Source: Chromera velia (Eukaryota; Sar; Chromeraceae). From it: a stretch of DNA of 64,000 nucleotides. Shown piece by piece: positions 12,300 to 61,086 of the stretch. The stretch covers positions 1-64,000 of the forward strand of contig JAHBMJ010000035.1 of the NCBI GenBank assembly GCA_018398765.1, given 5' to 3'. Each line of letters starts with the position of its first letter. Position 1 is the first letter of the stretch. The notes below the pieces were generated by a model, which made no database searches, was not told the DNA's origin, and saw only the letters and a program-made list of their open reading frames with translations. The translations under genes were made by a program, and so were the position numbers.

Positions 12300-12337
<38 letters not shown>

Positions 12338-17446: not shown

Positions 17447-21464
<4,018 letters not shown>

Positions 21465-34532: not shown

Positions 34533-35097
34533 CTGCAGAAAGCAAGGAAAGGACCCAAATCAACAATGCCCCCGATTTCTATGAACGCAATCATCAGTCA
34601 CCTTGCTGAATTGAAGTAATCAACGCTCTGCACCTTAATTATCAACTTTGCAAAGAAGAGCTCGGGCACAGCAGAGAATATGGTGAGCTGGACGTGTAAG
34701 AATAGATGAGCACATGGTGCAGCATGGACTGCACGTGTGATCCCGTTCAGGATAACAATCGGGCGGGTAACATGCCGGAAAACCGACCGGGTGCTGGCGG
34801 GGTCGACCCCGCCGTCATGGGGTCATAAATTTCAATCAGGGGGGGGTCAGAAAGGCCATATGATTGCACAAGACACCACCAACGGGCAGCCAGGCAGGCA
34901 GAGAATCAGACAAAGTTGTCTGCGGAACCACAGCACACCGAAGAGGGTGAAGGATGGGACAGTTGAGGTCCAAACGGAGTAATTGAGACCGTCAGTAACC
35001 TCAAGCAGAATGGTGCGGGCGCGTATGCTTCTCTACGGTGGTCCCCCCGGGAAAAGAAGCGCTATTCAGATTACATTGAACCTGCGCACAAAAAAGT
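34533..35097. other. Spacer with 18-bp palindrome
   Basis: No supported exon. It contains a perfect palindrome GGCGGGGTCGACCCCGCC at about 34797-34814 within otherwise plain sequence, between the acidic-protein gene and the 3' end of the nuclease-like ORF. Confidence 0.45.
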
Positions 35098-36291
35098 CTA
35101 CGAAGGGACTGCAGTGTGCAAAGCAGGTGTTTGGAAAGTTGCGTTGTCAATCGGGGTGCCTCCTCTGTGCAGTCTACCTGTGAGAAGGTATAGAGCTGCA
35201 TCGTGGAGGGAGCGGGGACAGGCCATGTTGAACCGCCAAAACAGTCGCTGACGTGTCTTGGAGGCGATTTTGTCAACGAGGGCCTCAGAGAAATGAAGGC
35301 GGAAAAACATCACCCCTTCACCAAGGTCAGACCTACACAATCCAAGTTGGGCAAAATCTACGCTTGAGAATAAGTAGAAATAATCTGTCGAGGTTGGTTG
35401 AGGAGGTCCGACAAGAAAAAAGTCAAATTCCCCAACATCATATGCCACTGCTTTACCGCCAAGTACCCGTTTGCTACTCACCGAAGCTTCCAGGCGCGAG
35501 GCACACCAGCACCTCCCCCGGTAGGATGTCTTCACCTGAATTCTGAGCGGTCTGAATTGATTGGAGGAGGGCAATCGTAGAGTGAGGTCGTACGAACCAA
35601 GGGGGTCTTCCGCAAGTGACGTTTTGAGTCCGGCCGCGGCAAACAGGGGCTGGAACCAACGGAGTGTGATGGCCTCTGTTTTATGTGTGGGGGAAAGCTG
35701 ATTTTCAAGCTCTTCCAGAGTGTACAGGCGGACTCCAGCTGCGGAACTCCCGCTTAAAGCCTCGTTGTAATGCTGGAGAAATTTTTCCCAGAGAAGCATT
35801 TCCCCCCTGTCGTTCCTGTCCCAACTACATCGAAAGTCTTCCGTATCATACCTCCCTCCGGGGGTGATTGGGATCACGCCACAATTCGGAAAAGGAAAGG
35901 ATCCTGGGAATATCCACACACCGTCCGGCATATCAGCTGACAAACCAATACCGCTCTGCAGAGCAACGCACGTGACCACCATGCCCACATACCCTCTGTT
36001 CAATCCCTGGAAGCGCCAGTGGCTTCCTATGCAAGCTGTCGATTTCACCTGCACAGCTAGCCACGGGCCATTTTGGAAGCCCCTGGGTCGGATCGCCATG
36101 TCAGCTTTTGCCTTATCAGGCAGCGCGTGTTCAGGCTCTTCGAACCAAGGTTTGATCGCCTGCCGGATGCGCTCTTTTGCGCGATCTTCCACACTCAATG
36201 CGTGCGCCCACCGCGTGATTGGTCCTTTAGAGTTTCTGCTTCTTCCTTCATTGCCAGCAGCGTTCAAGGGGCCTTTGGGGGATTCGACCAA
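35098..36291 (-). CDS. Intronless protein with two D...QVK nuclease-like cores
   Basis: A single frame of 397 residues on the minus strand (ATG at 36291, stop at 35098). Two segments show the same pattern: an Asp in a beta-strand, a loop, then a strand ending QVK plus Ser/Thr. They are KADMAIRPRG...WLAVQVKST at residues about 62-85 and SYDLTLRLPSS...LRIQVKTS at about 237-262. Each is preceded by a helix with aromatic residues (KPWFEEPEHAL; RWFQPLFAAAGLKTSL). This D-x(n)-(E/Q)xK arrangement is the core of PD-(D/E)XK nuclease-fold proteins, and QxK variants are known in that superfamily. I therefore infer a tandem duplication of a nuclease-like domain, active or decayed. Being intronless in an intron-rich region may mean recent transfer or mobile-element origin. 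A second minus frame at 36343-36738 just upstream may be an extra exon. I name no function beyond this. Confidence 0.55.
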   Translation of the reverse strand: MVESPKGPLNAAGNEGRSRNSKGPITRWAHALSVEDRAKERIRQAIKPWFEEPEHALPDKAKADMAIRPRGFQNGPWLAVQVKSTACIGSHWRFQGLNRGYVGMVVTCVALQSGIGLSADMPDGVWIFPGSFPFPNCGVIPITPGGRYDTEDFRCSWDRNDRGEMLLWEKFLQHYNEALSGSSAAGVRLYTLEELENQLSPTHKTEAITLRWFQPLFAAAGLKTSLAEDPLGSYDLTLRLPSSNQFRPLRIQVKTSYRGRCWCASRLEASVSSKRVLGGKAVAYDVGEFDFFLVGPPQPTSTDYFYLFSSVDFAQLGLCRSDLGEGVMFFRLHFSEALVDKIASKTRQRLFWRFNMACPRSLHDAALYLLTGRLHRGGTPIDNATFQTPALHTAVPS

Positions 36292-37975
36292 TTTCTTTGG
36301 TGACGAAAAGGAGCGCCTGGTCTGGTTCGGGCTGAAGGGGATTTATGCCGCCAGCTGATGTGGCTTCAGCACAGGTTGCAGGCAGAGCGCTGGAAAGGAC
36401 GTCTGCATCTCTTGAAAACCTCTGAAGGGACATCGTCTCCCCTCCTCTATAACATGGAGCTTCCTACCCCCCATCCCCGCTTTCTCGTTAATTTCCACCC
36501 TTCTGTCATCTGCCACAAACATTTTTGGCTGAAAAACCATACCAAGCAAACGGCTTTGGGTGGCAGCGCGGGGATTTTGAGAAGAAAACCAGCTCTGCGA
36601 CAAGCGGCCACAGAAGATTGAACAAAAGCTTCTGGGGGCAGTGTGAGAGCGTAACGTTCGAAACAACACATTGCGTTCGAGCCTGAATAATGCCTTTGCC
36701 ATTGCGCTCCGTTCGAGTGAAGGATCGGACGGCAGCAAATATTGAAACAGAGGCTGCTCGCAACTAAAAGCGTAGATGGGTCTTACTGGAATCAGATTCT
36801 CTGGTCCGGAAGCGAGTTCGAAAGCAGCGTGGTCAGTGTGAGGTACTCGTCTCCATGTTGAGGCAGCACTATAGCACGGCTGGATACCCCTGCATGGAAA
36901 CGTAATATATCGTCTGACTCAAAAGGACTGTGTACACATACTAATTGAGGCCATTCATCCTCTTCATAGAGATCTGGGTATAGCATATCTGTCTGACGGC
37001 CCTGTCAGTTGCCGCCAAAACTCGTGTTTCGATATGTTTCAATCGTGCAATCGTAAGTCGATCGACAGTTGGTGATCGCGTAGACGGGTGTGCATGCATG
37101 TGCATGCATGCATGGCTATCTGAAATCAGCCAGCGTCAGCCAGCTGCATCATAGCTGAATCTCGTCTGTCTGAGTGCGTACGGGCCCTGCATATGACCCT
37201 GGAAAGCGTAGCGTGGGGCACTTAAAAAAATTGTAGCTACTTGAGGCTATTTGTACTAGAACTGTCAGGATGGCTCGAAATTCATGCCATAAACGCGCAT
37301 ACGACCTCGTCCTTGACGTGAGACGGTATTTCTCGGAGAGTCGGAGTGTATTGGAGTGTTCTGGACTAAGAACCTAAAATCGGAATATGTTTTGCAGAGT
37401 ATGTTTTACGGAGTATTTCCATAGTTATCCATAGTAAAAAAAAAACTTAGTCTTCAATTAAAATAAATTAGAAAACATCGTTAGAATGACTTATAATGAT
37501 TTTGCTATACTTAGATGTTAAATACTGTTAAAAAAACTAGTCTGATAACAAGGTATAACAAGGTGACTTGATCATAGAAATACATATAGAATAACATAGA
37601 ATTGAACAGTAAGTTAAATAAATTCATCAAATTGACAAACTTAAATTAAATTGTATTAATTGTGTCTTGAGACAATGAGGTCACTGTTAGGAAAATAGTA
37701 CTGAAAATACCGAATTAAGAATTCCTTCATGAGCGTATACAAAGCAGAAGGACGAAGAACAAAAGGGCAGACGAATCTAGAGACAAAGTAACGTTCAAAC
37801 TTTTCGCAACCTTGTCAAACACCAGAGATCAGACTTTTCTCTACAAAGACCAGCCACCCTTCAACAAAGTGTTCGGTCGTCCCCCCCATTCCCTTAATTC
37901 CGTCACCAAGTGTAGGCAGACTGTCCACAAAACAAATTGATGCACCTGTAGTCACTGCACTAATCTGGTTTTCAC
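36292..37975. other. Intergenic region with possible upstream ORF and AT-rich part
   Basis: 36343-36738 holds a minus-strand frame of 131 codons, basic and without recognised domains; it could be a 5' exon of the nuclease-like gene. 36740-37380 shows no supported gene (TGCATGCATG repeats at about 37092-37115). 37430-37760 is AT-rich and noncoding. The 3' end of the SCAPER homologue follows. Confidence 0.45.
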
Positions 37976-40900
37976 TTAAGTCTCTTTCTCACCCGATTTA
38001 TCTTTCTCCCCCTTTTCGACTGATCCCGATCCCCCCCCACTTGCGCTCTGCCCTCCCAAAGAAGGGTTGGTGCCTGCAGAAGCGCCAACCGCGCTTCCGC
38101 CCGCTCCCGCAGCGGTTGACGCAGATACTGCAGTTGCGCGTCTCGCCGCGCCAGCAGTCTTCCCCCCCCCCACGCCGGATGAGACTTGAGAAACCTGCGA
38201 TGGCAGCGAGACAGCGGCACTCGACGGCCCTCCTCCAGCTGCTGTTGGGGACGCGCAAGGCGGAGAGGGAGCAGATGCAGAACCCCCAATCGTGGCGCTT
38301 GTCGAAGTCGGAGCAGGTGCTGGTGCGGGCGTAGAGTCCTTCTCTCCGTCTGAGAAGAAAACGATCGCCTCAGGAAGACAGGAGACAGGGAAACGAAAAC
38401 TGAAGGACTGGAAGAGCAAAGTGCCAGAAGGCAAAGACGCGACTGCCTGCTGTCCCCTGTCTTCCTGCCCTCCTCCCGCCGTCTCCCCGGCAGAAGTACC
38501 AGCGGCAGAGGAGGAAGAAGCTGGGGTAGCAGAGACAGTGGCCTGACGATGCGTCTGCTGTTTGTGAGAGAAGGAGCCCCCACTGGGTGACGACGCAGCT
38601 GCTGCAGTCATGTGTCTGTCACACGCGGGAGTTGCAGGTTTCTCTTTTTCTTTCCGTGCATGCCCTTCTCCTGTGACTGCCCTACCACTCCCCACTTGTC
38701 CCCTCTCCTTTTCCTCACTTCCCGTCACCTGGGTGACGCTGCCTCTGAGCCCTCCCTCATGTTCCATGTCTTCTTTTTGCCTCTCCTTCTCCTTTCCGGC
38801 CAGGTACTTTCGGATGGGGAGGATGGAGAGCTCCGAGGAGAGCACCTTCAAGTTCTCAGGGTTTCGGAACGTTGAGGCGATCAGGGTGGGAAACAGAACC
38901 TGAAAAGGAAGGAACAGAGGGGCGTACAGACATACAGACAGAGAAGGGATACGCATGTGATTATGTACACAACTTGACTTACATTCTTGCTGACACACAT
39001 AGTCGGGGGACGGAACGCTCGAGGAGGGAATGAGAACGAGAGTGGAGGGGCTGACGTCCAAAAACCCATGATGGATGTCCAAATGCGGACAGATTGCTTG
39101 GTCAACAGAATGCGACGGAGAAAAGGAAGCGGCAAAGTTGAGAAGGAGAAAACAAAAGGAGGCAGGAGCGAAGCAGAAACAAAAATGGTGTAAACCAACA
39201 ATCCCCTCTCCTACGACCATGACACCCACCTCCTTCAATTTCTCGTCAACGAAATAGTTCATCGGGAGGGATGCCAAGCGTGAGAGGAGGTTCTGCAATG
39301 AAGATAAATGATACAAGTCGTGCAAGGTAAGAAGGAAGAAAGAGCGAAGTGCGACGACCCGCAACGCAGGAGAGACGAGTGCGAGTCAATTCAAAGACAA
39401 AGAAACAGAGAGAAAAAAGAATCACTCACAAGCCCCGTCTTGAGGCGAAATTAAATCAATTGCAAACATAAGAAACAAAGTGACTCACCTGCCCGCTGCC
39501 CACTCTCATGATCGTTTGCCCCTCTGGATTGTCCAGGCAGAAATGTCCCAACAGGAACACAACGTCATGGAGGATGTCCCTGCACACAACACAAAACAAT
39601 AAACAACACGAAGAAAGAGCCTGTATGCAAGACTGGCATGAGAACTATGTACGAAAAGGAGGTACAGACACAGGAAGGAAATAATAGACGCAGAAAGAAA
39701 AAAGGCTGGAGGGAGGGAGGCATCTCTGTTCCTTTTCCTCACCTCCATTCCCTCAATCCAATTCACTCCCTGCTCACTTCACTTCACTTGCAGTCTGCCT
39801 GCCTGCCTGCCTACCTGCAGTCCTCTTGGTGGTCCAGTCGGGGAGTGCAGTAGTCGAGAAGGTAGGCTGCCAGGTGCACAAGCTCGTTGGACTGTCGGCC
39901 GAGGACTCTCTGCGAAGGAGAGGAGAAAAGAAGAAAATTAGGTGATCGAACAGAGAGGAGGAAGTCGAGAGAGAGCAGAACGCACTCACTCGGCTTAGTC
40001 TCCGCGAGAAAGAAATGGGGCAAAGGGGGGCAGAAAGAAAAAAATCCAGAAGTGACTATTAGAACGAGTCCGCCCTCCACGCACAAGCCTCTACCGATCG
40101 ATAGTTTCTAGCCTCCTCTCACACACTCACCTACCTGCATAGACCGAAGTTGCAGCCTGGCCGCATGGTTGATCACCCTCACGACAGCCGCGCAGACCAG
40201 CAGAGACGCCTGGGGGACTCGGGGGGGCAGCACGGCCCTCGGAGGACCGTCAAATAACAGCAGAGAGGCCTGCAGACATGCATACAGAATTCTTTAGAAA
40301 TAAACGTCAAACAACAGCAGGGAGGCCTGCAGGCAGGGAGGGAGGCAGACACGGGGACACAAAGGGCGGGCAGCCAGAAAAGAGACAAAGAAAGAGCAGG
40401 AGTGCAATGGATGGATCAGGAGACAAGACAAGACAACAAAAACTGAGTGAAAGACCTGGAAGGAAGCGTCAGTGGATGAAGACTGAAAGGAAGGACAAAG
40501 AAAGACAAGATCCCTGAGGATTCAATAAGGCCGGGCAAAATCAAGATCACTGGCTGACTGACAGACAGACTGACCATCAGAGTGACGCCCCCAAAAAGGG
40601 CGGTGTCCTCGAAGATCCTGCTCAGGGCAGCAATGGCCAGCTCCTCTCGACTCACAGAGACCTGAAGAGGGGGGGACTTGACCGAAACCGCCCCTGCCGC
40701 CGCCGCCTTTGCTCCTCTAGTGGAAGAGAAGGAAGAGGCACCAGGAGGGCCAGTGACATGGCGAGGGGATGTGGCGCCGCCCCCGACCCCGGTGGTCCCC
40801 CTCGTGCGGAAGGAGGCGCCCCCTCCCCCCCCGCCGCCTCCGCCCCGTTTCGCCCTGGCTGCCTCTGTGCCTCCCTTTTCCTTCTCCCCCCTTTTCTTCT

Positions 40901-43900
40901 GCTGCTGCTGGCCGGTCTTGCTTGCCGATGCAGCAGTCGCCCCTCCCGTCCCACCACCGGAATTCGCAGAAGCACCAGCAGCAGAAGGTTGCTGCTGCTG
41001 GAGGGTGGAGACAGCGGGGGTGATGCCAGAGAGAAGAGCATCCAGGACGGGAGAGGGCGGGCACTTTGGGTGTGAGGTGATGCACCGCCATCTGCACCAG
41101 TGCCTGCAAGTGAAAGTCGAAAGGCAAAAGAAGAGAAACAGGGAAAACAATGCAACGACTGCCAGTGACCCCAAGGACCGCCCATTGGGAGGGGACACAC
41201 GCGCGCACAAGCCGGAGGCGGGGGGGCGAGAGAAAGGAGACAGAGAGCGAGAGAAAGAGAGAGAGAATTTACAGTAGGGAAACGGACTGCGGATGGACAG
41301 ATATAAAGACGAAACGCGAAGAATATAAAGAGACAGGGGCATACTACTTCCCCTTTCTTTGTCCAAGGATCATGACACTCAGTCGTCGACAAAGGACGCA
41401 TCAGCGTTGCGTCCGGAAGACAATTAACTGGATCGTACTGTCGACTCCCTTTCTTTCTCTCTCACCTGCTGAGTTGTCCCATCAGAGCTCCAAGAAAGGA
41501 AGTTCCCTTCACGAGAAGAAGCGGGAGGGAAGAGGACAAATCCAGAGGTCCGGTCACCTTGGAGAACTCGAAGGTCAAGTGGAACGCGAGGCCTGATCGA
41601 ACAGAAGGAATGGAAAAAAAGAGAAGAAGATCATATTGCATCCACTCTCATGTGCGCAAAGAGACCCGACTGGGAGCCCTCTGATCATGAGCCTGTCCTT
41701 TAGAGTTGGTGCGAGGGACCAGGGAAGAGATGACAATATGAAGGGAAAGAAAAAAGAACTGACTCACCCGAGGAAGCTGCAAAGAGAGCGAACTCTTCTT
41801 TCATCCTGTCGAAGAGGAACAGAGAAGAAACCGCAACGCGAGAAGGTGAGAGAGGAGGACCCGCACCTCCACCTGAATTGTGCTGTTGCGTGTGCGTGGG
41901 AGTTTGGGGGGCTATGCTTCCTGCTGTTGCTGGTTTGGCAGGCGATAGGACAGGAGAGCCTGCGAACGCTAGTGTTTGCTTGGCTGTACTGTGATCATCT
42001 CCCGTTTCCCTCTCTTTATCTTTTTCCTTTTCAGCCCCATCCTCTTCCTCTTTCTCCATCTCCCTCTCATGTTTGTTGTCAGGTCTGGAATGCCCAGAAA
42101 GGCTCAAATCGACTGCAGCACTTGCCACCAGGGCGCCACCCTGTTTAAGAAGCAGAGTAATCACGTGAAGCAACTGCGGCTGCACAACACCTGACACAAC
42201 GCCAGAGCGCGCCATCTCCTCCCAGGTATCCTCTACAGAGGACCCTCCAGAGGGCAGGGGGGGCAGGGAGGACCCACTCGCAGTGCCCACTGCCCCACAA
42301 GGAGTGCTCAGACTCTCTGTTGTCTGATGTTGCTGCTGCTGATGCGACGTCTGTTGTGCGAGGTCCCTCTGCTGTTGCACCTCCCTAAAAGGCTCCCCTG
42401 TTGCCAGACGCCTCTCTCCTGCAGGCAGGTCGTGATGAAAGAGAAGAGAAAGACGGTTGAAACAAAATTATGAAGAAAAACAGGGCCACCGAAAGACCTT
42501 TCTGTCACGGGCTTTGCTCCTTTTCCACCCTATTCATTTTTTTTTGCCTTTCCCTGTACGCCGTTCTTCTCGAAAGATCTCCAAAAAATGGACGGGAGAA
42601 ATACCAACACGTAGAAGGATAGTGGCTGTTACGAGAATAAAATGCTCGCTTGATTGAGGACACACGAAAATGTTGCAAGAGGCCCCCCCCGCACGAGGCG
42701 AAGGATGCCCGTGAATGACGAAACTTTTTTTCCGTTGTCGTTCAGGTAATCAATCCACCGCCTCCCACCCCCTTTCCTTTCTCTATTCCTCCCGACCTTG
42801 AAACAGCTCCAAAGCGAAGTCGACTAGGACAGTGGCCCGACCCGTCAGGAGAAGGAAGGACCGACACACGGAGGACTTGGCAAGGAGGCCCAGAAGCTTG
42901 AGGGCAAAACTGCAATCGTGCACGCAAGAACAACCACGCAGGAAAGAACACAAATGATGAGGACAGAAAATAAACTTCCCGTATCACGACAAGCTTCTGT
43001 CTTTCTGACTTATTCGCTCAAGTTGCGGGTCTCTACTCTAGGTTTGTAAAGCAGTGAAGCTCTCTCTCCCTCGCTCTAGGTGATTGAAGGAAGGAAGGAA
43101 GATTGCATGGCTAACGGGCCGACTGACTGACTGACACGATGGTGTCTTTGACAGAAGCGGACGGGAGGTCTGAAGGCACCTGGGACGGCCTCAGTCCCTC
43201 CAGCACCGTCAGGAGGACCGCCGCCCCCCCGAGTCTCAGGAAAGTGGACGTGTCGCCCTCTCGGGAGGCGTCGAGGACCTGCATGAGAGGCGCCACACAG
43301 AGAGAGGAAGGGAGAAAAGAGGGCGATCGAAAGTATAATGAGAGGTAGGCAACCAGACAAAAAGCTGGCAACCAGACAATTGAGAAAGAAGACAGAACGA
43401 GAGAGAAACCAAAAGAGAAGGAAAGGTAGAAAGGGAGGACAACAGAAAAAAAAAGAAAAAAAAAAAAGATGGAAAAGTCTGTCTTTCTGTCCGTGTGTTT
43501 TTGTCTACTTAACTGACTGACAGGCTGACCTTGCAAAGTTCTCTCAGCGTCTGTTCGACCTTGCACATCTCCCAAGAGGAGGGGGAGAGACCGCAGAGCG
43601 CCACCGACTGCTGCGGAGAGAGCGACCCCACTCCTCCTCCCCCTGCTGCTGCTGCAGGAGAGATAGACTGCCCACTGGGGGACGATGAAGGCCCCGTGCC
43701 TGTCGTCTGTCCGCAGGAGGAAGAGGAAGAGGAAGAGGAACTTTCTTTTTCCTTGCCGCCCTGAAGAGAGGCCTGTACAGAGGGGTCCGAGGAGGCCTCC
43801 ACCTGCGGCAGTGCACAGTCCGCGCACACAGAGAACCGAGAGAGCGAACGAGAGAGTGCTACACACACACACGCGCGCGCGCACGCACGCAGACACGCAG

Positions 43901-46179
43901 AAACCTCGACCGAAAGCACTGTAGGAGAGAGCTCAAGGCGACGACTGTGTCCTCATAGCAACCGCCCCACTGTTGCACCCACACAAATATGGCTTTTCAT
44001 TGGCTGCCCCGTTTCCCACCCACACAGGAAAAAACGGTCGGGGAGCGCTGACCGACCAATTGGCGCAACTCCTTCACCAGCTTCCCGACACGTGACCTCT
44101 TCGCACCGGCAGGACCACATCCACACGCATCCAGAGCGCTCCTCTCGTCTGCCAACGCGACAGCCGTCCACCTTTGCAGCTTGCCTTTGCTCCTGCAAAG
44201 CAGAAGAGAAGCAAATAAATGATCATGCTCACTGACGATCTATGCGCTACAACGAAGCGTGTTGCTTTCAAGGAATGGGCGAAGGAGCGCATTTCACCTC
44301 TCTCTGCGCTTCAGGAAACAGAAATAGAATTGCAATCGGTTTGCTACTGACTTGACGGAGAAAGCTTTGAGGGCATCTGCGGCAGCAAGGAGATTCCTTT
44401 GAGATTCCTCCCTTTTTGCCTTCCCCTCCTTGTCTGTTGCATCTTTCTCTTTGTCTTTCTCCTTTGAAGGCAAGCGAAAGAGAAGTGCTTCCTCCTCTCT
44501 TTCTCTTTCCCTCTCCTTCTCCTTTTCTCGCTCGCGCTCGTGCTGTCTGGCTTTGTGGGAGTGAGGGGGAGGAGGTGACGTCGGGCCGTGTTTTTGGGCC
44601 CTCGACTCCGAGGTGGTTGCCGTGGAAGAAGGGAAGGAAGAAGAGGCCCCCCCAGAGGGAATGGAAATGGACGAAGAATGGGGGTCTTCTCCCCCCCCTG
44701 TGTTTGACTTTCTGTTGTGAGTTTGTCTATTGACAAGCTTCCCTCCTGCTCCTGCAGAGAGAGAGGAGTCCTTCTTTGCTCCTGCTCCCCCGCTCTGTTC
44801 TTTCTCTTTCTCCCCTTTTTCCTTCTCGTGCGTTTCCCCTACAGCCTTCTCCTTCTCCCTTCGCTTCTTAGGACCCCCCCCCGTCTTTGTGAGGGATTTG
44901 GTTTCTGGCGCAGTCGTCTCGCTGAGCTCCTTTTCGTTCAGTTTCTCGTCAGTCGGTCTCTCTTCTCCTTCCTCCTTTTCTTTGTCCTTTCCCCCACGCA
45001 ATGCCTTGTCCTTTTCTTTCTGCTTGTCCTTCTTTGCATTCTTTGCGTCCGGCCTTCCCTTCGCAATCGCCAATTCCGACTGTGCATGCGCTTTCCCTCC
45101 CCCATGCAGGTGCTGCTGTTGTCGGGATGTTGCGGCCTCAAGAGAGGAACGACTCGGGTTTACTGCCGTCGGAGGTTGCTGCGTCTTCGTGTTCGCAGCT
45201 CGACCGTTGACTCCGGGGCGGCGCGGCGGCACAAAAATCCATCGGGGCGATTCCGAAAGAGAAAACGTGTGACGTGTCTTGGGGGGCGTCGCCACAGAGG
45301 AGGCCCGGTCCCCTCCCATGAGAGCGCTTGGGGACTTGGGGGGCTGTGAGTCGGGTGCTTCCTTCGGAGAAGAGCCGGGGGCGGCTGAAGAGGCTGGAAT
45401 GCCGCTTCCCGGTCGGCCTGGTGCCATTGCAACACTCGAGGACGGAGACGAGAGGACATTGCCCTCAAATGCCGTCTCCTGTGAATTTTTCCGAACGGAG
45501 ACGCTGGCTGCAGTGCCGGTAACTGTTGCAGATACAGTGAGTGAGTGGGCAGAGAGAACTGAGGCAAAGGAGGAAACAGAGTGAGAGTGAGAACCCTCTC
45601 GAGCGGGCGCCTGACGTTGGAGGGCGTCCATCGGGAGGGATGCCGGGGTCCCTGCTGGCCCTGCCGGGGCCCCTGCAGCTGCTGCGGCAGCAGATTGCCT
45701 TCCTGGTTGTTTTCCTTTTCCTGCATGGGCCTTTCCTCGCTGCTTCTCCTCCTTCTCCTTTTCTTTCTTTGCAGCAGCTGCCGCTGCAGCTGCATAGGTC
45801 GCTTTTGTGTTGGTTGAGGCGTCCTTCATCATCAGAGACGCCCCCCCCGAGTGTTGGCCCTCGTGGCGGTTGGGCTTTGCAGAGGATGAGGAGGAAGAGG
45901 CGGCTCCTGAGTCTCGGTGCTGCAGTCAGTGCGTCGAGTCGAGGAGCAGTCAAAAGCGAAGAGCAAAATTAGGGCTCGGTTCTTCGACCGGCGCGCAAAC
46001 GAACGGAAGACAACGCAGTGGGACGAGAAGGGCAACTTTTGTATTACCCCGGGATAAATTGCCGACAGTTGTTCTCGGTCTCCCTGAACGCGCGTGCGCG
46101 CGCGTGTGTGTGTATCTATGTGTGTGTCTGCCTGTCCGTCTATCTGTCTGTTTGTCTGTATCTCGAGCGAAGGAGACAG

Positions 46180-46214
<35 letters not shown>

Positions 46215-49200
46215 AAGAGGGAGAGAGAGAGAGAGAGAGACAGAGAGAGAGAAAAGCGCAGAGGCAAAGAAACAAGACCCACCCACCAGAGCCGTAACTG
46301 CCGAGACAGACTGGCATTCCAAGTTCTTCTCTGCAGAGGCAGAAGCCCCCCCCGCAAGACCAGAGGAAGAAGCTGGGAAGGATTCATCACCCAGCGCCCT
46401 GGAGGCTGCTCCCTTCTCCTTCTCTTTTTCGGCTTCGGATACAGAGACAGAGACGGTGTGCATGATCGTGGAGGGGGTGCCTGGGGCGCTTCTCTGTCCC
46501 TCCCTTTCCCTCTCTCTGTCCAGAACGTCACCCCGACTTCCCGATCCAGCTGCCCCGCTTCCCCTGTAAATCAGTGAAGCTGCACTCACACACAGAAAGA
46601 CTGTATGTCTTGCTTTTTGCCTTCTTTCTTTTTCGTTTCAAGCAAACAAGAAAGCAGACAGACAGGCAGGCACACAGATTATGCGGTGCCTTTCTTTCCT
46701 TGTCTTTCTGCCGTCAAAACGGAGAAAGAAGAAATGCCTTCCAGACAAAAGAGAAACAATCGGTGACTTCTTACGATTGCAAAGAGAAGAGGAAAACGAA
46801 TACAAATACAAACATTTTACGTTTTGCTTCGCTCTACTCCCATAGCGCTTCTTTCTGGCCTACTGGATTCCTGCCAAGTCTGCTCGTATCCTCGCTCAGA
46901 TGTTAATGTAAGAATATATCCGTACGCACACACAAAAAGAAACACTTGACTCACGCACTCACGCACCCACCCGTCGATGTCTGCCCGCTCCTCTCCTCCC
47001 CCAGAGGTGAACCTTCAGAGTCACCCGTTTGACGCCTATCCTTGTCCCCTTGCCTCCCTTCATGTCCTCTCTCCTGCCGACAGCCACCCCTGTCTTCTCC
47101 CTCTCCAGAGGCACAAAAGGCATCGTCGTCGGAACGCCAAATCCGAGGAGAGGATGAAGGTGTACCGGGCAATCCAGAGTCACCATGTCCTCCCTTTCCG
47201 GGGCCATTCGGGGGAAACGAGGAGACCGCCGCCGGAGGTGAAAGGTCCCCGAGCTCTTCTTGGAGCCGGTGGTCCCTCTGGCAAAAAAAAGAAAAAAAAA
47301 GGGGGGGGAGAATAAGAGAAGTGGGGCATGATGGCAACAGAGATGATTGAGTCTACTTCTCGGGTGCAAAGTCTGCAGCATGGGCGGTCACCCTGCTCAC
47401 TGAATTTCCTTTCTCCCCTTTCGGTCACCTCCCTGCATCTGTTGCGCTCTCCCAGACTTCTGAACGGCGACATGTTTCCCTCTCGAGAACTCACAAACGT
47501 GCGGACATTCTTTCTGGTTGTAGAATGGATCAAATACGCTCAGGGAACGACAAGAGATCGACGCAATTACTGCCTGCCTGACTGCCTGACTGACCCTTGA
47601 GTTGACATAGTGATGAGGAGACCTCTCAGGAGATGAAAACGACCCCCCACAGTCTCCCCTTCTGCTCGACCTCGACAGCCCAAACCCCGTACCGCCCCTG
47701 CCACTTGGGCCCGTGAAGGGCAGAGATGGACCCCCATCCGTCTCCTTCAAAGAGTCCGGACTCACACTCAAACCCATGCTGCAGTGAAAAGCAGGAGTGC
47801 AGGCATGCGTCCATACGGGTGCATCGGTGGATGTATGCGTTTAAAGGGAGCAACAGGGACGGAAAAAACAGAAATCGGTCGACAAGTCAGCAGCAGGCAC
47901 GTCGGGACAAGTCCAGTTGGCAGAGATACGTCTTCGTCCCATGTCTACTGATCACCGAAAAAGAAATCGGAATCAGGTCCTGATTCTCTTCTTTTAGAGA
48001 AGCACCGTCAGAGCCCGAAACACTTTTGACGTCTTTATCCCTCCTCCAACTTCGCCCAGTCTTCTGCTTAAGACACTAGTGACCGTCGTATCATCAAGAA
48101 AAGGCAGTTCAGCAAAAAAAGAGGACACACAAGCTTCCAGTTCCAAGGCAGCTACTGACGGACCGTGCAGCAAGAGAGCGTCTAATTCTGGACTCGGGAC
48201 TGTCCCCTGGACCGGAGCCCTGCACACACTCACACACGCACAGACAGAGGGTGATGGCAACCGAACTAAAAGTTTGGGCATGCAAAAGATTCCCAAACTG
48301 ATTTCTTGTGGACAAGCAGATAGGCAGAGAAAACTGCAGAAGAAGACACAAATATGCGGAGGTGAAGAGAACACAAATATCGCCGCGACCGGAGAGGAGA
48401 TTTATGAACACACAGGAGACAGGAAGTTGTTTTGAAAAGAAATTCATCCGGTTGAATCCCTCTCTTTTGGACTGATCAATAGAATCGATATCAATCACTT
48501 CCCTCCAAAAACAAACAATACAGCAACCGACGAAACCCCAATTTCAAGTCCCGCCGGGTGTTTGGAATTTTTTTTGAAAGGGCTGCTCTTCTTTTGTCCG
48601 CCCTTTCTGGTTATGTCTGTGCGTACCTGCTGTGTGCGCATCACTTTCTTTCTCTGCAGGACTTGAGAGATTCTCCTTTCATCCTCCATCCCCTTCTTTC
48701 GAATGCTTTCCAAGTGGAGTTGGCGTCGCTCTGCTGCCAGCTTTTCTTTTCCCTGCACGCGCACATGCATGCAGTGTTTGTTCATCGATGGGGGCGCAGC
48801 AGAATGAATGTGTGTGTGGTCTGAGTGTGGGGGGAAATCCGAAGAAACCTCCAGCAGCTAGCGTCGAGTGACCTGACAGTCAGTCCTCCACGGAGAGAAC
48901 AGAGAGGCGGGCAACGTATCATACGCAACCTTCTTTCCAGAGTACAGGTGAGCCACGAAGGCGTGGAAACGGAAATGGGTGCCAGAATGAGAAGTTAAAT
49001 GACCCATCGATGGATCAGGAAAAACTCTCGGCTCTCGGGCAAACAGCAAAGTGCAACACCCTCCCTACCATTCAACAACATCCATACAACCCCATGAAGT
49101 CTCCTTGCGGCTTTCACACATGTGTACGCCTGGACACATGGATCACTGTACGCAACATCGTGCGGTTATTCGTGTTTATTGCGTGGAACCATTCATTCAA

Positions 49201-49596
49201 AACCTTCGTCCCGAACCTCTAATTGTCTCCTCTTTTCTTCTTGCGCCTGCGTCTCCTTTTTCCGACGCTGCTGGAGGGCCCTGCACAAAGAAAGGACAAA
49301 AGTGCATCCACACGGTTCCTTCCTCATCCTTTTCGTCCTGTTTTTTGCGGTAAGATGGTGTTGCATGTGATGCTTGTGTAGCCATGGCGAAAGCTTGCAA
49401 GCTCACTGTGGGATGTCAAAGAAGGCCAATTCGCTTCGATGATGTGCGGCTACAGTTCTTCTCCAATTCACATCATGTGCTCTTGGGAGGAGTGAGAGAG
49501 AGAGAAAGAGTTACAACCATACGGAAAGATGATAGCGAAGTTCGAAAAGACAAGATCAGAAGGACACAAACACAGGAAATACGAAAGGAATGGTGT

Positions 49597-49636
<40 letters not shown>

Positions 49637-50706
49637 TCTCTGATACGGGCAAGCAAACCCTGGCTGCAACCTCGCTTCCTCGCTCTCCTTCTTTCCAGAG
49701 AAAAAAGTTCTTCGCTCTTTCACTCTCTCCTTCCCAGTACCTTCTTCTACTCACTGACAGACTCATGCACTCCTTCGCTCCCTCCCTCCCCCCCTGCCAC
49801 ACTGACGCTGAAATCCGTCTCGCTCTGTCCAGCAGTCTCCTTCTGTATTGTCCCTCCCGGCTCTGCCTGCATGAAGAGGCCTGCGCCAGTCTCCCTTCAA
49901 GAACGGCTGCAGGGAGGGATGGGAGGACAGAAGGAAAGAAGAGACAAGGAGGGAGGGGCGGAAGGAAGGGAGGTGCACCACTGATTGTGAAACAGGGAAC
50001 GCTGCATCGGTTAGAAATGAAGAAAAAGGGCTCCTGGATCTCGTTCACCTGTTTGGTCTTCCAGTTCTCCTTTGCAACCCACCCATTTCATCGCCGAAGC
50101 CCAACCGCAGCTTTCGCTGAAAAGCAAAGGGGGGGGGGGGGGNNNNNNNNNNNNNNNNNNNNNNNNNNNNNNNNNNNNNNNNNNNNNNNNNNNNNNNNNN
50201 NNNNNNNNNNNNNNNNNNNNNNNNNNNNNNNNNNNNNNNNNNNNNNNNNNNNNNNNNNNNNNNNNNNNNNNNNNNNNNNNNNNNNNNNNNNNNNNNNNNN
50301 NNNNNNNNNNNNNNNNNGGGGGGGGGGGGGGGCTGGACGTCGGATGAAGAGGCCCGGGAAGGGAACAAAAGAAAGTGGAACCACAATACTTGACAAAATG
50401 ATCATACCAGAAAGGGTGTCCCTACAGTCAGACGACATGGGGCAGAATAGGCGATAAGCAAGAAGTAAATGCAGAAAAAAAGCATCGGGGTTGCGTGAAC
50501 GACAGGGTGCTTGCTTAGCACGGCCACCCTACTGACTGACTGACTGACTGACTGACCAGCGGCATTCTTCCTGAGTTCGTCCTTGATGAAGGCGATGATT
50601 TGCTGCTTGTGGCTTTCTGTCCGTGCTCGTCGGCTCACCTCCCTCAGGGAGGCTTCGTATTGTTCCTTTGCCCTGCAGGAGATGAGAAGAATCAAGTCAA
50701 TCCGGA

Positions 50707-50741
<35 letters not shown>

Positions 50742-53700
50742 AAGAAAGAAAAGAAAGGAGGGACAGAAGGGAAGTGAAAAAGGGGCCGGATGAGATCGAG
50801 ACAGGCTCGGAGAAAGACGTCCAAAGAAGAAGAGGAGAAACGACAGACGGCCAATAGAGTGATTTCGTTTGACACGCACCAAGGCACATCCTTGAAGCGA
50901 GACAGTTCAGGCAAAGATATTGCTGTCACACCCACTATGTCAGGCTGTCTTCCTTTCGCTACCGCTGGCGTACCCCGTAACCCTTCTTTCTGTGCAAAAA
51001 ATCAATGAAAAAATGGCACCAGCAACATGATGAACACCTGCCTGGTCATCTTCCGCAGCAGTTCGTCTTGTTTCGTCTCCAACTCGCGCTCCTTCCGCTC
51101 TCGCGCTCTTCTGCAAGTGCATTGCGGTGATCGGGAACTTACTGGGTCAGTCAGTCAGACGTCGGAGAGAGAGAAGGTATGGGGGAGGGCAGCAGGAAGT
51201 GGATGGAGCCAAGAGAAGAAAGGAGAACATCGGATACGCTCGGGAGGTACACACCGGCCCGAAAGAATCAACAAAGGCCTTTTTCCGGCAGCCCAATACA
51301 AAGTCGCGTTTTCACTGTGATGCAGAAACTCTTCTGCAAATCTCACTTGGCCGGACCTGTCGACCATATCTTCATTCATTCATTCGACTCACTGGATCTT
51401 CTTGTCGAGCTCCAGCGATTGACGCGTCCGTTTGACGTCTTCCGAAAATCGGAACTCCATTGCGCGTCGCTGCGTGTAGAGAGCGAGGGAAGGAAGAGTA
51501 CTCGCTCAGGTAATAAATAAGTTGGGGCAAGGAGAGGCAGAGGCAGCGTGTCAGAGACAAGAAGCATCTTTGCTCACAGTTCCCTTTCTTCTCTCTTTCT
51601 GGTGGAATGGTGAACACCTTCTTTGAAACAACGATTGAGGCAGGACAGGAGATTTGAATCCCCCACTCGCACTCCAAATGATTCTCAATCACACACAATG
51701 AAGGTCAAGTTTTCTCTCTCATCTGACCTTACCTGTCTCTCTTCCTGTCTTCTCAATACTTCCACGGGTGCTTTCTTCTGCAAACAGGAAGGCAGGAAGG
51801 AACGCAAGAAGGAGAGATGAAAGTGAATTAGCTCACGTCCCTGACCGCAAACATAGGAAGACAGACAGACGCGACGATCGTTCGACTGAAGAAAAGAAAA
51901 GAATGAAATTGCACAAAAAAGAGAAAAGGATGAAAAAGAGCCAGCAGCCCGCCCGAATATGTTGAAAGAAACCAAATCAAGGAGTCGCCTGTTGTAAACG
52001 ACCTACAGCGTATCTGTCCGGGGATGAGAACCGCATGTGGAGAGCCCTCTGTGCATCCATCACGTACTGCACAATGTCCCGAAGATCTGTCCCCCCTCTG
52101 CTGCTGCTCCCTGCCTCTGTCCCCTCTGCGCCTCCCTTCGCTGTCTTTCCTCTTGCTGTATGTTCGGTAACAGAGTTGAGACCTGAGTGGGGCGTTGGGA
52201 GACGTCTCCAGCTCTGGGAGGAGCTCATGCTCGCAGACGACCTGTGGGTTGGCAGAGGCACGGCCCCGACAGAATCACCACCTCCAGTTCCAGCGCGATG
52301 CGTGGAGGCGGGGGGAGATCCTGGTTGAAAGGACGGCGACACATTCCCTGATTTTGGCGGGGGACTCGGGGGCTCCGCCGCGGCTGCCCTGTAGCCTGCA
52401 GGGAACAGGGGCGCATTTTGGACCTTCCTCCCTCGTCTTAAGGCTGCTCCCTGCTGGGCTTGCGCAGAGGAGGAGGAGGCTGTGACTTGAGGGGCACCTT
52501 GGCTGCTGAAGGAATTGTGCGCCGCCACCTGCCTCTGGTGTTGTTGGAGGGACCCCGGAAAGGCGGCGACACCCGAATACTGCTGTTCGGAGACGGGCGT
52601 CTCATGTCCTTGCAGTGCTGCGGGTGTCATCTTGAAAGAAGACGAGACGGTTGAAGCAGCATCAAGAGGTGGACGTGCACTTCTGGCAGTCGGGGTGGGG
52701 ACGGAGGAGGCTGGGGGGGAGGGCGCGGTCCTCGCTGTGGGTGCGGGGGGGCGTCTCCCTGGAGATCGGTGTCCGTGCATAGGGCTCTGCATCAGCCAAG
52801 AACAAAGTAAAGCAGTATGCATTCGTCCATGCATCCCTGCATGAGATTACACCTGTCCACTATTTTTCAGAACCTAAGCTCCTCATGAGTCTATCTCCCG
52901 TTATGCGCGCCGCCCCCCAATAAACGACCAAGCATCCAAACATTTGCCTATCTGTCTGGCCTTCTACGAACGAGAAAGAGGGAACGGTCATTTTGCGGTG
53001 AGGAAAAAGAGAAACGGCAGAAGAAAGAGGAAAGACTCAGTCATCCATGAAAAGACATCATTTCAAGAAAAGAGAGAAAGACTTGCAGACCTCCCGACTA
53101 CACCCTCCAGCAGAACCCCGGGCGATGCCACGAACAACAAAAGGAAAAAAACCTCTACTTACCTGCAGCATCGAGAGAGCAGTCTCCAGCTGCAGAGGAG
53201 GCTTCTGCTCCCCCTGTTCTGAACCTGCTGACATCCGTCTCACCTCCCAAGCATGAGACACAACTCTGCTGTGCGTTGCAGTTCGGGGCGTGTGGCTGTG
53301 GGAAGACCCCCCCCCTCCTTGCGTTACTGAAGACTCCCCCCCACTCTCTGTCATACAGGTCAGGCCCCCAACCTTGTCCTTTCCTGCTACTGCTGACTGC
53401 TCCTGTCCATTCCCTCCCCCTTCCTTCACATGGGTCTCCTTCCCTGCAAGTTGGGGATCTCTTTCTTCGGCCTGCTGGAGGAGATCCTTCTCTCTTTCTC
53501 TTTCCCTCTCGTTCTTCTCTTTCTCGAGGCTTTGAGCCTGCTCTCGTGCAGTCTGGTGGGCAAACTCCTGGAGATGAAACCTCTCAACCAGCTGCGAGAA
53601 GTCGGCCTCCGCATCTTTGAGAATTTGAGTGACAGACCCGACACAGTCGGGGTCAGATTCAAACTCACAAAGCGCGTAGATTTCGTCAATCGAACGGCGG

Positions 53701-54098
53701 AGACGGCTGAGAGACTCAGTCCAAAGCCGAGCACGCAGAGCAAAACCGTCGAAGTCCCCAGCCTGCATACTGGTGCTTCCCGCAGTCAGACAAGAGGAGA
53801 CGCCAAGACTGTTGGCTGGGGACGGTAGAACACCCGACACATCCTCGTTGTCTTCATCATCAACTTCGACCTCTATTTCTGTCTCTATCTCTACATCAGC
53901 CCCCGCTTTTGACGATCGGTCTTCGTCTTCCTCGTAGTCCTCCTCTCCGTCCTCTGTGTGCTCGTGTGCCATCAAATCGGCCACGATCTGTGTGACCGTC
54001 TCCATGTCCACCCCACTCTCTATTCCCTCGAAGTCCGAACTCTCAAGTCGTGAGACGTCAGGAGGTTCTGTGAGGGCCCTTCCGCTAATTTCAGACAT
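37976..54098 (-). CDS. SCAPER: SCAPER homologue (S-phase cyclin A-associated protein in the ER)
   Basis: A 16-kb gene with about 25 exons. It starts at ATG 54098. The first exon (53163-54098) has the SCAPER N-terminal domain: LRRSIDEIYALCEFESDPDC, then FHLQEFA, then HAWEVRRMS, matching LRRxVDEIYxTCE...IQLQE...AWEVxKMSPG of animal SCAPER. Then come a Pro/Ser-rich exon (52007-52786), small coiled-coil exons (51733-51777, 51393-51469, 51038-51110, 50557-50665, and 48645-48752 with ERRQLHLESIRKK), low-complexity exons (44.3-48.4 kb), KGKLQRW near 44180, and helical-repeat exons such as GDTSTFLRLGGAAVLLTVLE (43.2 kb), 42.8 kb, 41.5 kb, 40.2 kb and DILHDVVFLLGHFCLDNPEG (39.5 kb). The C-terminal exons (39230-39292; 37976-38899) read NYFVDEKLKE, VLFPTLIASTFRNPENLKVL and FRFPVSCLPEAIVFF, as in the SCAPER C-terminus. 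The zinc-finger exon is not clear (a Cys/His motif lies near 47.5 kb). A gap at 50143-50317 may hide an exon. Ser/Gly/Ala/Lys-rich insertions make it longer than animal SCAPER. Confidence 0.85.
43120..43140. repeat. (GACT)n at a SCAPER-homologue donor site
   Basis: A short GACT run which on the coding strand reads GTGTCAGTCAGTCAG, directly following the end of the exon that encodes SASVKDTI. It exemplifies microsatellite growth from a GTCAG donor. Confidence 0.75.
46179..46252. repeat. (GA)n microsatellite
   Basis: A GA tract in an intron of the SCAPER homologue. Arg/Glu or Ser/Leu frames through it are artefacts. Confidence 0.9.
50143..50317. other. Assembly gap (175 N) flanked by poly-G
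   Basis: A run of N bounded by 12-15 G on each side, inside the SCAPER homologue between the coiled-coil exons at 50.6 kb and 49.2 kb. It could conceal exon sequence. Confidence 0.99.
50531..50556. repeat. (GACT)n immediately at a donor site
   Basis: A GACT array which on the coding strand starts exactly at the 5' splice site of the SCAPER exon 50557-50665 (intron begins GTCAGTCAGTCAG). Confidence 0.9.
50706..50745. repeat. (GACA)n microsatellite
   Basis: About ten GACA units in the SCAPER intron upstream (coding sense) of the 50557-50665 exon. Confidence 0.9.
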
Positions 54099-58100: not shown

Positions 58101-61086
58101 AAATGTGTGGGGGCGGCTTAGCACTCGACATGCTGTGCATTGAAAGTTTTCTGTCTGACTCCCAGTCTCTGTATCTCTTTCTGTCACTCTCTGTGTGGCG
58201 GCACGTATTGAATGTGCGTCTGTCTCTGTCTGCAGCAACGCAAAAAGGAGGAGGCAGAAAAGAAGAAACGGCTCGAGGTTGGTGTCTTTCTGTCTCTCTC
58301 TCGCGCGCGTTTTCTCTGATCCTTGTGTGTGTGTGTGTGTGTGTGTGTGTTCGTTGTGTGTGTTCTGTGTGTGAAGTGGTGTGTGTGGAGGAATAGGTGA
58401 TGGAGAAAGAGTGTGCAAGGGGCTGAGAGAAGTCTGTCGGCATCTTCTCCGGGCCGTATCTTCCCTCAGGCATAAGCGCGATAAAACGTTTTTGATGGTA
58501 ACAGTTTCGCACCAGGGTCACTTGCAGTAAATGCAAAAACCGAGAAGGCCGTCATCCATTCATCCAGTCGCCGCAAACGAAAAAGTTTAACGGGATTTTG
58601 CGCAAAGAGAGTGAAAGGTCCTCTTTACACTTTTTAATGTGTTGGTTGATTTGCGGTTCTTCCTTCTGCAGCGCAAACAGGCGAGGGAAGAAGAGGAGAG
58701 GAAGTGGAAGGAATACAAAGCTGCGAAAGAGGTATGTCTTTCAGGAAAGCGCAAAGCCCAAAAGCGAAAGAAAAATAAGCAAATGGGCTCGCAGCGAACT
58801 TCAGCTGTTGGCAGGCATGTGAGAGAGCCAGGCAAAACTGTAAGCTCCGCTTCCCACCGAATCGTTTGCACATTCAGTGCCAGGAAGCAGACCCACCAGT
58901 CGGGCCCTTCCTGGTTGCCGATCACAAACTTACGTGGTCTGTTTTTTTGTCTGTACTCGTTCGGCCGGTAAGCTGGTCAGTGCAGTTTCTTGTTTTCTCT
59001 ATACACTGTGCAACTTAACTGCTCTTTTGTATCCTGCATCCCTTTCTCCGTCTTTCTCTCTGTCTCTCGCTTTCCACTGTGTGTTCTCCCTGCATCCTAG
59101 GAATGAACTTTCCGGCTATTGTTCCTCTCCCTTTGTCGTCTCTCTCAGGCTGCTGAAGCCGCTGGAGAAGAATTTGCCGCCTCTGACTATTCGTCTTTTG
59201 AGGAGGAGGAAGTCGCCCTCTTGCGGTCAGTGCATGGGGCGCTCCGAGAACGAAAACGGGAAAGGCGAGAAAAGAGCAGGGATGCCGTGTCTTATTTCAG
59301 CCAGCCTGCTCACACACGCAAACAAACGGGAACTGCTGAGAGCTCACACGCCTGGAAGTATCAGAACACACGATTGTCTCTTTCCCTCCCTCTCTCTTCC
59401 CCTCCTCTCTCTCTCTCCCTCTCGTGTTTTGACTTGTTGCAGATGCCAGGCCTGCAACAAGAACTTCAAGTCCGAAAAACAGTCAGTCAACCAAGAAGAC
59501 GGAAAGGCAGGACGATCGTCACGCTAAAGCACCCGCTTGCTTTTCTTTTTTTCTATCTTTCTTGGCTCCCTCCGTCCCTCTGCCCGTCACCCACCTGCAG
59601 CGACAAAAAAAGATATGTTTGTTTACTTGCTCGATCCAAGTACCCAGCAGCTGTGGTTCTCATCTTATGGTTCTTTTCACTTTAGCCAAGGACCAAAAAA
59701 AGGAAACGGTGCCATGCTGTACTCCATCAGTGTGCTGTACTCCTCCCATCACCATCAGCGCTGCCGTTCATTTCTGGTCTATGCATGCATGCAGGCTCGA
59801 GGCCCACACAAAGTCGAAGAAGCACGTGCAGGCCGTGAAGGCCCTCAGAAGAAAACTCGAGAAGGAGGTCAGAAAGACAGACCAGACAGAGAGCGGGCGG
59901 TTCAGACTCGGGTTTCCTTGCCAAAAATGCTCAGAGCCGGCACCCGCCCTCTCACGCTCCTATCTTTCCCGATTATACAGAGAAAGAGACAGGGAGAGGG
60001 CGAGAGGGAGACGTGGAGGGCAGGAGAGCTAGACAGGCATAGACACAAAAACACAGATCTCATGGAGAGCCGAATTGAAATGTTTTTCTGCTTGTCTGTT
60101 TAGTCCTCTGCGTGTGTTTTGTGTGTGTGTGTGTGGCTGAGTGAGTGCAGGAGAGGGAACTGCAAAAGGAGAAAGAGTTGCAGGCAGAAGAAGAAGAGGA
60201 GAGCGGGGATGGGGAGGAATTGAGTGAGGAGGAGGAGGAGGTAAACGGGAGTGTCCAGAGAAAGAATGAGGAGGAGGGGACGACGAATGGAGTGGCAGAA
60301 GAAGACGAAGTGGGAAGGGAGACAGGAACAGAGGAGGACGAGGAGGAACAGGAAGAGGAGGATTCTCCGGTTGCACGTCCGAACGCTGTAGCAGAGAATG
60401 GAGTCAGTGAAAACGAAAAAACAGCCGAGGAGGAGGAGGAGGACGAAAAGGAGGAGGAAGAGGACGACATCCCAGTGTCGTTTCTGAGAGGAAACTCGAG
60501 AAGAGATCGCAAACAGCAGCAGAAAAGAGCACGAAAAGGAAAAGGAGTCATCCGAGGTCCGATTTCTTCTTCTGATGAAGAAGAGGAGGCCGACGCCGAG
60601 GAAGACGACGAAGGTGTTGACGCACCTTCTCCTTCCGCGGCTGCCGCTGCTGATGCTCTTTTTGAGGAGAATGCTGCGAAGGAAGTTGACTGGTCTGATG
60701 ACGACAAAAAGAAAAAAAAGGGAAAGGGGGCAAAGGGAAGGGCGAAGGGAAAACAACCAGTCGCTGCAGCTGCAGCAGCATCAGCAGAAAATGCTGAGGA
60801 GGTTAGTGAGAACATTTCTCCGGCAGCAGGAGAAGACCCATTTGAGGAAGAGGACCAGCAACATGGGGGTAAGCAGAAAGGAAAGGGGAAGAAGGGAGGA
60901 GGGTCTGCACCTTCTGCAGGTGGAAGCGCTGCTACTTCTTCTCACTCCTGCTCTGTGTGTGGGGCAGCGTTTGACTCTCGCACGAAACTCTTCACGCACA
61001 TCAGGGAAAAGGGCCACGCGGCCTTGAAAACTGTCCAAGGGGGGGGGTCAGGTTCTGGAGGAAAGAAGGGGAAAAACAAAAAATGA
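55149..61086 (+). CDS. DNAJC21: DNAJC21/Jjj1 homologue, J-protein of 60S ribosome biogenesis
   Basis: Fifteen exons with consistent phases: 55149-55235, 55369-55422, 55756-55849, 56046-56103, 56352-56478, 56780-56815, 57292-57375, 57601-57637, 57759-57904, 58236-58277, 58672-58731, 59149-59225, 59443-59481, 59795-59867 and 60151-61086. The order matches DNAJC21: a J domain ([20 protein letters not shown], the HPD of [26 protein letters not shown]), the family linker ([20 protein letters not shown]), a charged helical region ([20 protein letters not shown]), a first C2H2 finger split by an intron (CQACNKNF + HTKSKKH), a long acidic Glu/Asp region, a Lys-rich part, and a terminal second finger ([20 protein letters not shown] with GH). 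In yeast, Jjj1 works with Ssa/Rei1 to free Arx1 from cytosolic pre-60S particles; the same role is inferred here. The gene looks complete and intact. Confidence 0.93.
60121..60140. repeat. Short (GT)n before the last DNAJC21 acceptor
   Basis: A GT tract in the last intron of DNAJC21, just upstream of the GAGTGCAG acceptor for the 60151 exon. Confidence 0.7.

Follow-up and report, generated by a model that had tools for sequence, protein, structure and literature searches.

Arrays of the tetranucleotide GTCA are anchored at 5' splice sites in this genome: they start close to the donor much more often than expected, in the phase of the donor and on the coding strand. The first-pass annotation had noticed such arrays at several exon ends and had proposed either that donors seed tetranucleotide expansion or that new introns obtain their donors from arrays. 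The donor-anchored arrangement was confirmed as real, above chance and broader than first described. The first of the two proposals was supported by position, phase, strand, the preceding G and the presence of other GTNN units at donors, and we consider it probable (about 0.6) that donors act as proto-microsatellites that seed slippage into (GTNN)n arrays.

The window is the whole stretch of DNA that was analysed (64,000 nt; contig C35, positions 1-64000). Its GC content is 0.45-0.55, and its genes are intron-rich with low-complexity stretches. A gene-finding HMM was trained on 264 kb (the window and 200 kb of contig C1), and most of the introns analysed are predictions of this HMM. The self-training loop yielded the coding model and the weights of exon positions -3 to -1; donor positions +4 to +6 were learned, and +3 was kept flat in the loop. 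Model A had flat donor positions +3 to +6 and a generic acceptor, so that circularity is reduced, not absent. Genome-wide counts were performed over one eukaryotic assembly (177.8 Mb, 4,040 contigs). Introns with N were dropped from the array-to-donor distances together with those shorter than 80 nt, and from the array coverage profile (234 introns, model A) together with those shorter than 100 nt; introns shorter than 180 nt were left out of the branch-point and acceptor-run counts. For the donor-type fractions (227 donors, model A), donors beside exons with a coding score of 2 or less were dropped. For the GTNNGT seed test, 170 of the 253 model A donors were left after the left-edge and other filters (sites whose preceding base continued the repeat, GTGT units and sites near N were dropped). 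A satellite on contig C1 (about 73.8-75.5 kb), or a gene overlapping it, was excluded from the distance, unit, seed, intron-similarity and acceptor-run counts; it was still included in the coverage profile and in the donor- and acceptor-type fractions. The units of this satellite (L038; about 73813-75523) are often 21 or 31 bases apart, with GGTCAGT in each. Note that the GTCA pattern reversed is the same repeat in another phase; its count was used for the C and A phases and did not serve as a null.

Six exon ends in at least two unrelated genes had been named by the first-pass annotation. Five of them are donors in the self-trained model C (43136, 43530, 40575, 47595, and 9421; Table 1), and the named sites are indeed spread over two distinct gene models. 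Before it was self-trained, the HMM had picked only 43529 and 40574 of the six as donors. At 43512-43521, the perfect 10-nt GTCA array starts 8 nt inside the intron. The sixth site, at 50556, was a near tie, since model C puts the exon end at 50639, not at 50557: the longer exon, to 50557, had a coding score of 4.49 and a donor PWM score of 6.31, versus 4.14 and 5.93 for the exon to 50639. The longer exon matched a segment of human SCAPER (8bpo) weakly (shuffle P = 0.03, uncorrected for the choice of the segment by eye). The residues beyond 50639 hold the larger share of this weak match (shuffle P = 0.12 alone), and SCAPER was not retrieved by a whole-PDB search with exon 50672-50557. The site falls within a predicted 31-exon gene on the minus strand (35097-54098), which has the SCAPER N-terminal domain at one end and, at the other, long exons with no Pfam match in the set scanned; this prediction may be two genes joined by the gene model.

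The window holds nine perfect GTCA-class loci of at least 10 nt after merging of neighbours. Five are GTCA-sense loci at donors (9349, 43121, 43512, 50531, and 59480), three are TGAC-sense loci that lie a short way before an acceptor (11521, 30541, and 51146), and one lies in an intron interior (12300-12457). The acceptor near 51110, which the third TGAC-sense locus precedes, is unmodelled and weakly supported; over 140 nt, its candidate exon had a negative coding score whichever of the three frames was read. The kinase donor (GTCGGTCGGTCGGTC) carries a (GTCG)n array, that is, a unit other than GTCA in the same placement.

Table 1. Arrays at or near splice sites in the window (slash, exon-intron boundary)
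Position	Strand	Feature	Basis or context
9349-9420	-	(GTCA)18 with one interruption (perfect runs of 35 and 36 nt); first base is the donor	Exon 9497-9421, model C
11521-11534	+	(CTGA)n as read on minus-strand gene; ends 9 nt before acceptor 11511	Model C
12300-12457	-	Degenerate GTCA array in intron interior	Only window array away from splice sites
20265-20279	-	(GTCG)3.75; first base is the donor	Inside protein-kinase domain; model C and Pkinase match
30541-30643	+	(CTGA)n, opposite orientation; ends 3 nt before acceptor 30647	EF-hand match crosses intron
40554-40574 (site near 40550-40574)	-	Donor ATG/GTCAGTCTGTCTGTCAGTCAG, imperfect array	Gene models before and after self-training
43121-43135	-	GTCA array, perfect 15 nt; first base is the donor	Exon 43278-43136, model C
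43512-43529	-	Donor AAG/GTCAGCCTGTCAGTCAGT (also read AAG/GTCAGCCT)	Gene models before and after self-training
47569-47594	-	Donor AGG/GTCAGTCAGGCAGTCAGGCAGGCAGT, imperfect GTCA/GGCA mix (GTCAGTCAGGCAGTCAGGCAG)	Model C
50531-50556	-	(GTCA)6.5, perfect 26 nt, at intron start; candidate donor CTG/GTCAGT	After exon 50672-50557; open frame and weak SCAPER match
51146-51158	+	CTGACTGACTGAC as read on minus-strand gene; about 35 nt before candidate acceptor near 51110	
59480-59489	+	CAGTCAGTCA across donor CA/GTCAGTCAACC	DNAJ/zinc-finger gene; zinc-finger Pfam match crosses intron
59782-59794	+	TGCATGCATGCAG; last base adjoins acceptor of exon 59795	Acceptor-side counterpart, model C

Enrichment of GTCA arrays in the first 20 nt of introns, which the first-pass annotation had proposed to test, was seen over the 264 kb. 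Under model A, 8 of the 15 intronic GTCA arrays of at least 10 nt start within 20 nt of the donor (0.98 expected), and the other three models gave 10/16, 8/14, and 9/15 (about 1 expected each). TGAC-sense arrays were found at this distance in none of the four models (0/3, 0/17, 0/17, and 0/6). The orientation contrast had a p value of 0.00009 in model B (10/16 versus 0/17, many of the 17 opposite-orientation arrays being one compound array) and was not significant in model A, which had only three opposite arrays (p = 0.22). In the coverage profile (model A, 234 introns), GTCA arrays of at least 8 nt occupied 4.7% of intron bases 0-9 versus 0.44% of the interior, and the opposite-orientation repeat had no coverage in the first 60 intron bases. 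GTCA starts 52 of the 227 model A donors versus 7.3% of intron-interior GT sites; in a separate count of donor types, there were 57 GTCAG and 49 GTGAG. The arrays are not restricted to one unit: at the 22 model A donors with a period-4 run of at least 9 nt, the units were GTCA (8), GTGA (4), GTCG (3), GTGG (2), GTGC (2), GTCT (1), GTTG (1), and GTGT (1). Perfect tandem runs at donors reach 36 nt, a length far above chance, as in microsatellites.

The phase of the arrays was counted over the whole assembly. The left edges of GTCA runs of at least 12 nt lie in the G, T, C, and A phases in 4890, 2512, 3059, and 3435 of 13,896 cases, respectively (25% each by chance), counts that are not independent because the arrays are clustered. 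The base before the donor-phase left edge is G in 2,660 of the 4,890 cases (54%); for the C phase, taken as a control, 1,241 of the 3,059 edges have a C before them (41%). With runs of at least 6 nt, the left edges numbered 85,151 (G), 89,971 (T), 99,201 (C), and 74,850 (A), and the extension per 6-mer was 5.74% in the donor (G) phase, 2.79% in T, 3.08% in C, and 4.59% in A. The G phase has no surplus of 6-mers, yet it extends most often. For (GTGA)n, the genome-wide phase bias was weak (2538 versus 2106 left edges, and similarly 2738 versus 2323 right edges; two of the four phases counted), which counts against a general rule since GTGAG is also a common donor.

Seed and extension were then separated. 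The GTNNGT sequence, that is, the tandem delta-4 arrangement, was found at 69 of 170 donors versus 386 of 3006 intron-interior GT sites (p = 4e-18); with the other filter set, its fraction was 0.467 of the 227 model A donors. Period-4 runs of at least 10 nt were about fivefold more frequent per site at donors (9/170 versus 32/3006, p = 0.0002). Once GTNNGT was given, such runs were no commoner at donors than in intron interiors (9/69 versus 32/386, p = 0.25). Against pooled non-coding sites (intron interior, antisense, and intergenic), donors with GTNNGT did extend more (odds ratio 2.9, p = 0.009). Extension to at least 8 nt was seen at 9 of 22 GTCAGT donors and 3 of 19 GTGAGT donors, a difference that was not significant (p = 0.10); these counts are the donor rows of a tally that the contig C1 satellite inflated, and no other rows of it were used. 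We interpret the excess of arrays at donors as mainly one of seeding, perhaps with a small extra.

In the donor-seeding mechanism, the consensus GTNRGT, in which C is common at +3, has GT at both +1/+2 and +5/+6 and so already contains about 1.5 copies of GTNN; donors would be ready seeds for slippage. Replication slippage would extend the seed into the intron, where we infer added units to be nearly free of cost. The exon side would be held by the coding sequence and the donor, the arrays would grow rightward, and the fixed left edge in the GTCA phase would follow from this constraint. The dominance of GTCA would be due to GTCAG being the commonest donor type here. A second possible reason is that internal GTCA units have no -1 G and mismatch U1 at +3; they would be weak rivals of the first unit, and growth of the array might then leave the splice site in place. 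Against pure seeding, the donor phase extends more per 6-mer genome-wide, although these ratios pool donors with all other sites and are raised in the A phase as well.

The pairing with U1 was evaluated for these units. The 5' end of U1 is canonical (AAACUUACCUGG) in two loci, one above and one below the gathering score, with a third, weaker match; the idea of a U1 co-adapted to +3 C was ruled out by this canonical end. The duplex energy (kcal/mol) was -13.9 for CAG/GUAAGU, -9.5 for CAG/GUCAGU, -5.2 for xUG/GUCAGU, and -2.8 for the internal unit UCA/GUCAGU. The many candidate donors in register that had been pointed out in the arrays are present as sequence, but the internal units pair poorly in comparison with either exon junction, and the first unit should usually win, the margin being small for xUG exons. 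Internal units of other arrays gave -6.3 (GUGA), -10.2 (GUGG), and -11.5 (GUAG). The modelled energies suggest that what makes GTCA arrays tolerable is that no unit but the first is a fair donor. Against this idea, several rarer units are equally weak as internal partners of U1, and GTGG and GTCG arrays occur at donors though their internal units out-pair those of GTCA. Protection of the first unit by a -1 G was not borne out, as donors with runs of at least 9 nt were not richer in -1 G than the others (15/22 versus 168/227 in model A; 20/27 versus 133/194 in model C).

A wider reading is that splice signals are standing birth sites of microsatellites at both intron ends, with (GTNN)n extending into the intron from the donor and (TGCA)n from a TGCAG acceptor. 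GTCA arrays and +3 C donors would promote each other's spread, since GTCA would be able to expand at the donor without creating strong competing, frame-shifting donors. We regard this reading as tentative and rather doubtful. TGCAG ends 142 of the 228 acceptors even under the generic acceptor of model A, and (TGCA) arrays occupy 4.5% of the final 10 intron bases versus 0.5% of the interior (model A, 234 introns). In the whole assembly, TGCATGCATGCA has a G after it in 2,984 cases and an A or a C in 3,001. TGCAG with a preceding run of at least 8 nt was not significantly raised at acceptors in model A (12/124 versus 7/152 in the interior, p = 0.15); model C gave 13/127 versus 7/116. The (TGCA)nG arrays at acceptors are a weaker parallel to the donor arrays. 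TGAC-sense arrays ended within 50 nt of an acceptor in 0/3, 3/17, 3/17, and 2/6 cases in the four models (expected 0.16, 0.94, 0.94, and 0.51; P = 1.0, 0.063, 0.062, and 0.084), a tie to acceptors that is suggestive only. The (CTGA)n arrays upstream of acceptors were also considered as iterated CTGAC branch points, but this was set aside, since CTGAC at -60 to -10 was not enriched in model A (13 versus 13.1 expected) and had only a mild excess in model C (24 versus 17.0). Other tetranucleotides were also sided, GCAG arrays being concentrated towards the 5' end of introns and CTGC arrays towards the 3' end (window and L031-L050); the absence of GCAG near the ends could reflect AG avoidance just before the acceptor.

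Selection may alternatively keep the arrays, if repeated GTCAGT recruits U1 or splicing enhancers to a donor weakened by its +3 C. This would fit with the mismatch of GTCAGT to canonical U1 at +3, with the greater extension of donor-phase runs per 6-mer genome-wide and with the pooled non-coding comparison. In addition, -2 A is rarer at donors with runs of at least 9 nt (9/22 versus 147/227 of the others, model A), as if arrays aided weak sites. We nevertheless think it unlikely, because the extension rate at donors did not differ significantly from that of intron-interior sites, internal units barely pair with U1, and the best U1 duplex of CAG/GUCAGU was no better when an array was added (-9.5 both ways).

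It is still less likely that the arrays predate the introns and gave them their donors, or that introns are inserted elements that carried the array. One strand of the array does hold many GT and AG dinucleotides, and arrays are common in the genome. However, many different GTNN units form arrays at donors, and the similarity screen of 238 introns of the 264 kb (plus-strand, low-complexity-filtered) gave 38 distinct similar pairs, 18 of them in one local stretch of contig C1 and the remaining 20 only 18-56 nt long. Within single introns, the two ends were no more complementary than shuffled sequences (5.383 versus 5.374, 222 introns), and by the same comparison the pairing of 5' and 3' arrays as a stem was rejected. 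No sequence family shared among introns, as introners would give, was found in these 238 introns, a sample from which a rare family would escape. The 18 local pairs lie within about 27 kb (L048-L050; contig C1, minus strand, about 173-200 kb), as if from local duplication. Finally, mere coincidence between a microsatellite-rich genome and common GTCAG donors, with nothing more to explain, differs from donor seeding mainly in emphasis and already deserves little credence: introns are generally rich in period 4 (match rate mostly 0.33-0.44 versus about 0.25 in exons) and extension from a given seed is ordinary for introns, but arrays are about five times as frequent per site at donors as in the interior, with phase and strand fixed.

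Introns were also read by homology. Four compact places from multi-row contigs were picked among 39 GTP_EFTU-family matches before the sequence was seen, and 12 donors were read by eye from the translation; for 4 of these the stretch ended before an acceptor was reached. GTCAGT starts four of the 12. We take these loci to be EF-Tu, BipA, and LepA. The EF-Tu exon ends with AAITKV/GTCAGTCAGTCAGTCAGTC, and the donor carries (GTCA)4GTC; at the nucleotide level, the donor is AAAGTG/GTCAGTCAGTCAGTCAGTCGGG, and the protein picks up again at TTGCAG/CTGTCTGAAAAG. The intron-bearing gene is presumably the organellar EF-Tu, in which we would expect the valine before the intron. In the window genes, Pkinase, DnaJ, zinc-finger, and EF-hand Pfam matches run across predicted junctions. 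Continuity of the protein across a GT-AG intron was seen for introns of the EF-Tu family and for those crossed by the Pkinase, DnaJ, zinc-finger, and EF-hand matches, which are a subset of the predicted introns. Another GTP_EFTU match (G000:C4040:11453-12055) has one in-frame TGA and could be a plastid tufA; the TGA would fit a plastid code in which UGA encodes Trp.

Among the matches listed in the open-licence literature (titles and the starts of abstracts), no description of donor-anchored arrays was found, and the main text of the chromerid genome paper contains neither 'splice' nor 'microsatellite'. Donor-anchored arrays would join two subjects that are usually separate, the birth places of microsatellites and the evolution of the splice-site consensus. 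If donors seed slippage, one could predict intron starts to be hot spots at which length varies, and the units tolerated at donors would be a readout of the choice of the spliceosome among repeated donors. Gene finding here could also draw on the +3 C of donors, the TGCAG of acceptors, and the arrays as markers of boundaries.

The closest likeness in arrangement is to tandem delta-4 donors, GTNNGT, in which a GT four bases downstream of the authentic one can compete as a 5' splice site (PMC1876488). The arrays here iterate this arrangement; they differ in being expanded up to 18 units, at many introns, and in that the internal GTCA units appear weak by energy. Intronic repeats that alter splicing near splice sites appeared among the matches listed, i.e., a 7-bp repeat of LHX3 in dogs and a poly-A of PMEL17 in merle dogs. 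These also have a repeat close to a splice site, but they are single disease or trait loci, whereas the pattern here is genome-wide and anatomical, and its unit contains the splice signal. Introners, or intron-generating elements, would give repeated sequence at intron ends; in the 264 kb, related introns form a single local cluster, other matches are short, and the ends show no complementarity. In the proto-microsatellite model, short chance repeats seed slippage. The likeness lies in the 1.5-copy seed that would precede expansion; the difference is that the seed here is a functional splice signal kept in place by selection, and a seed so fixed would give arrays with a fixed left edge, phase, and strand.
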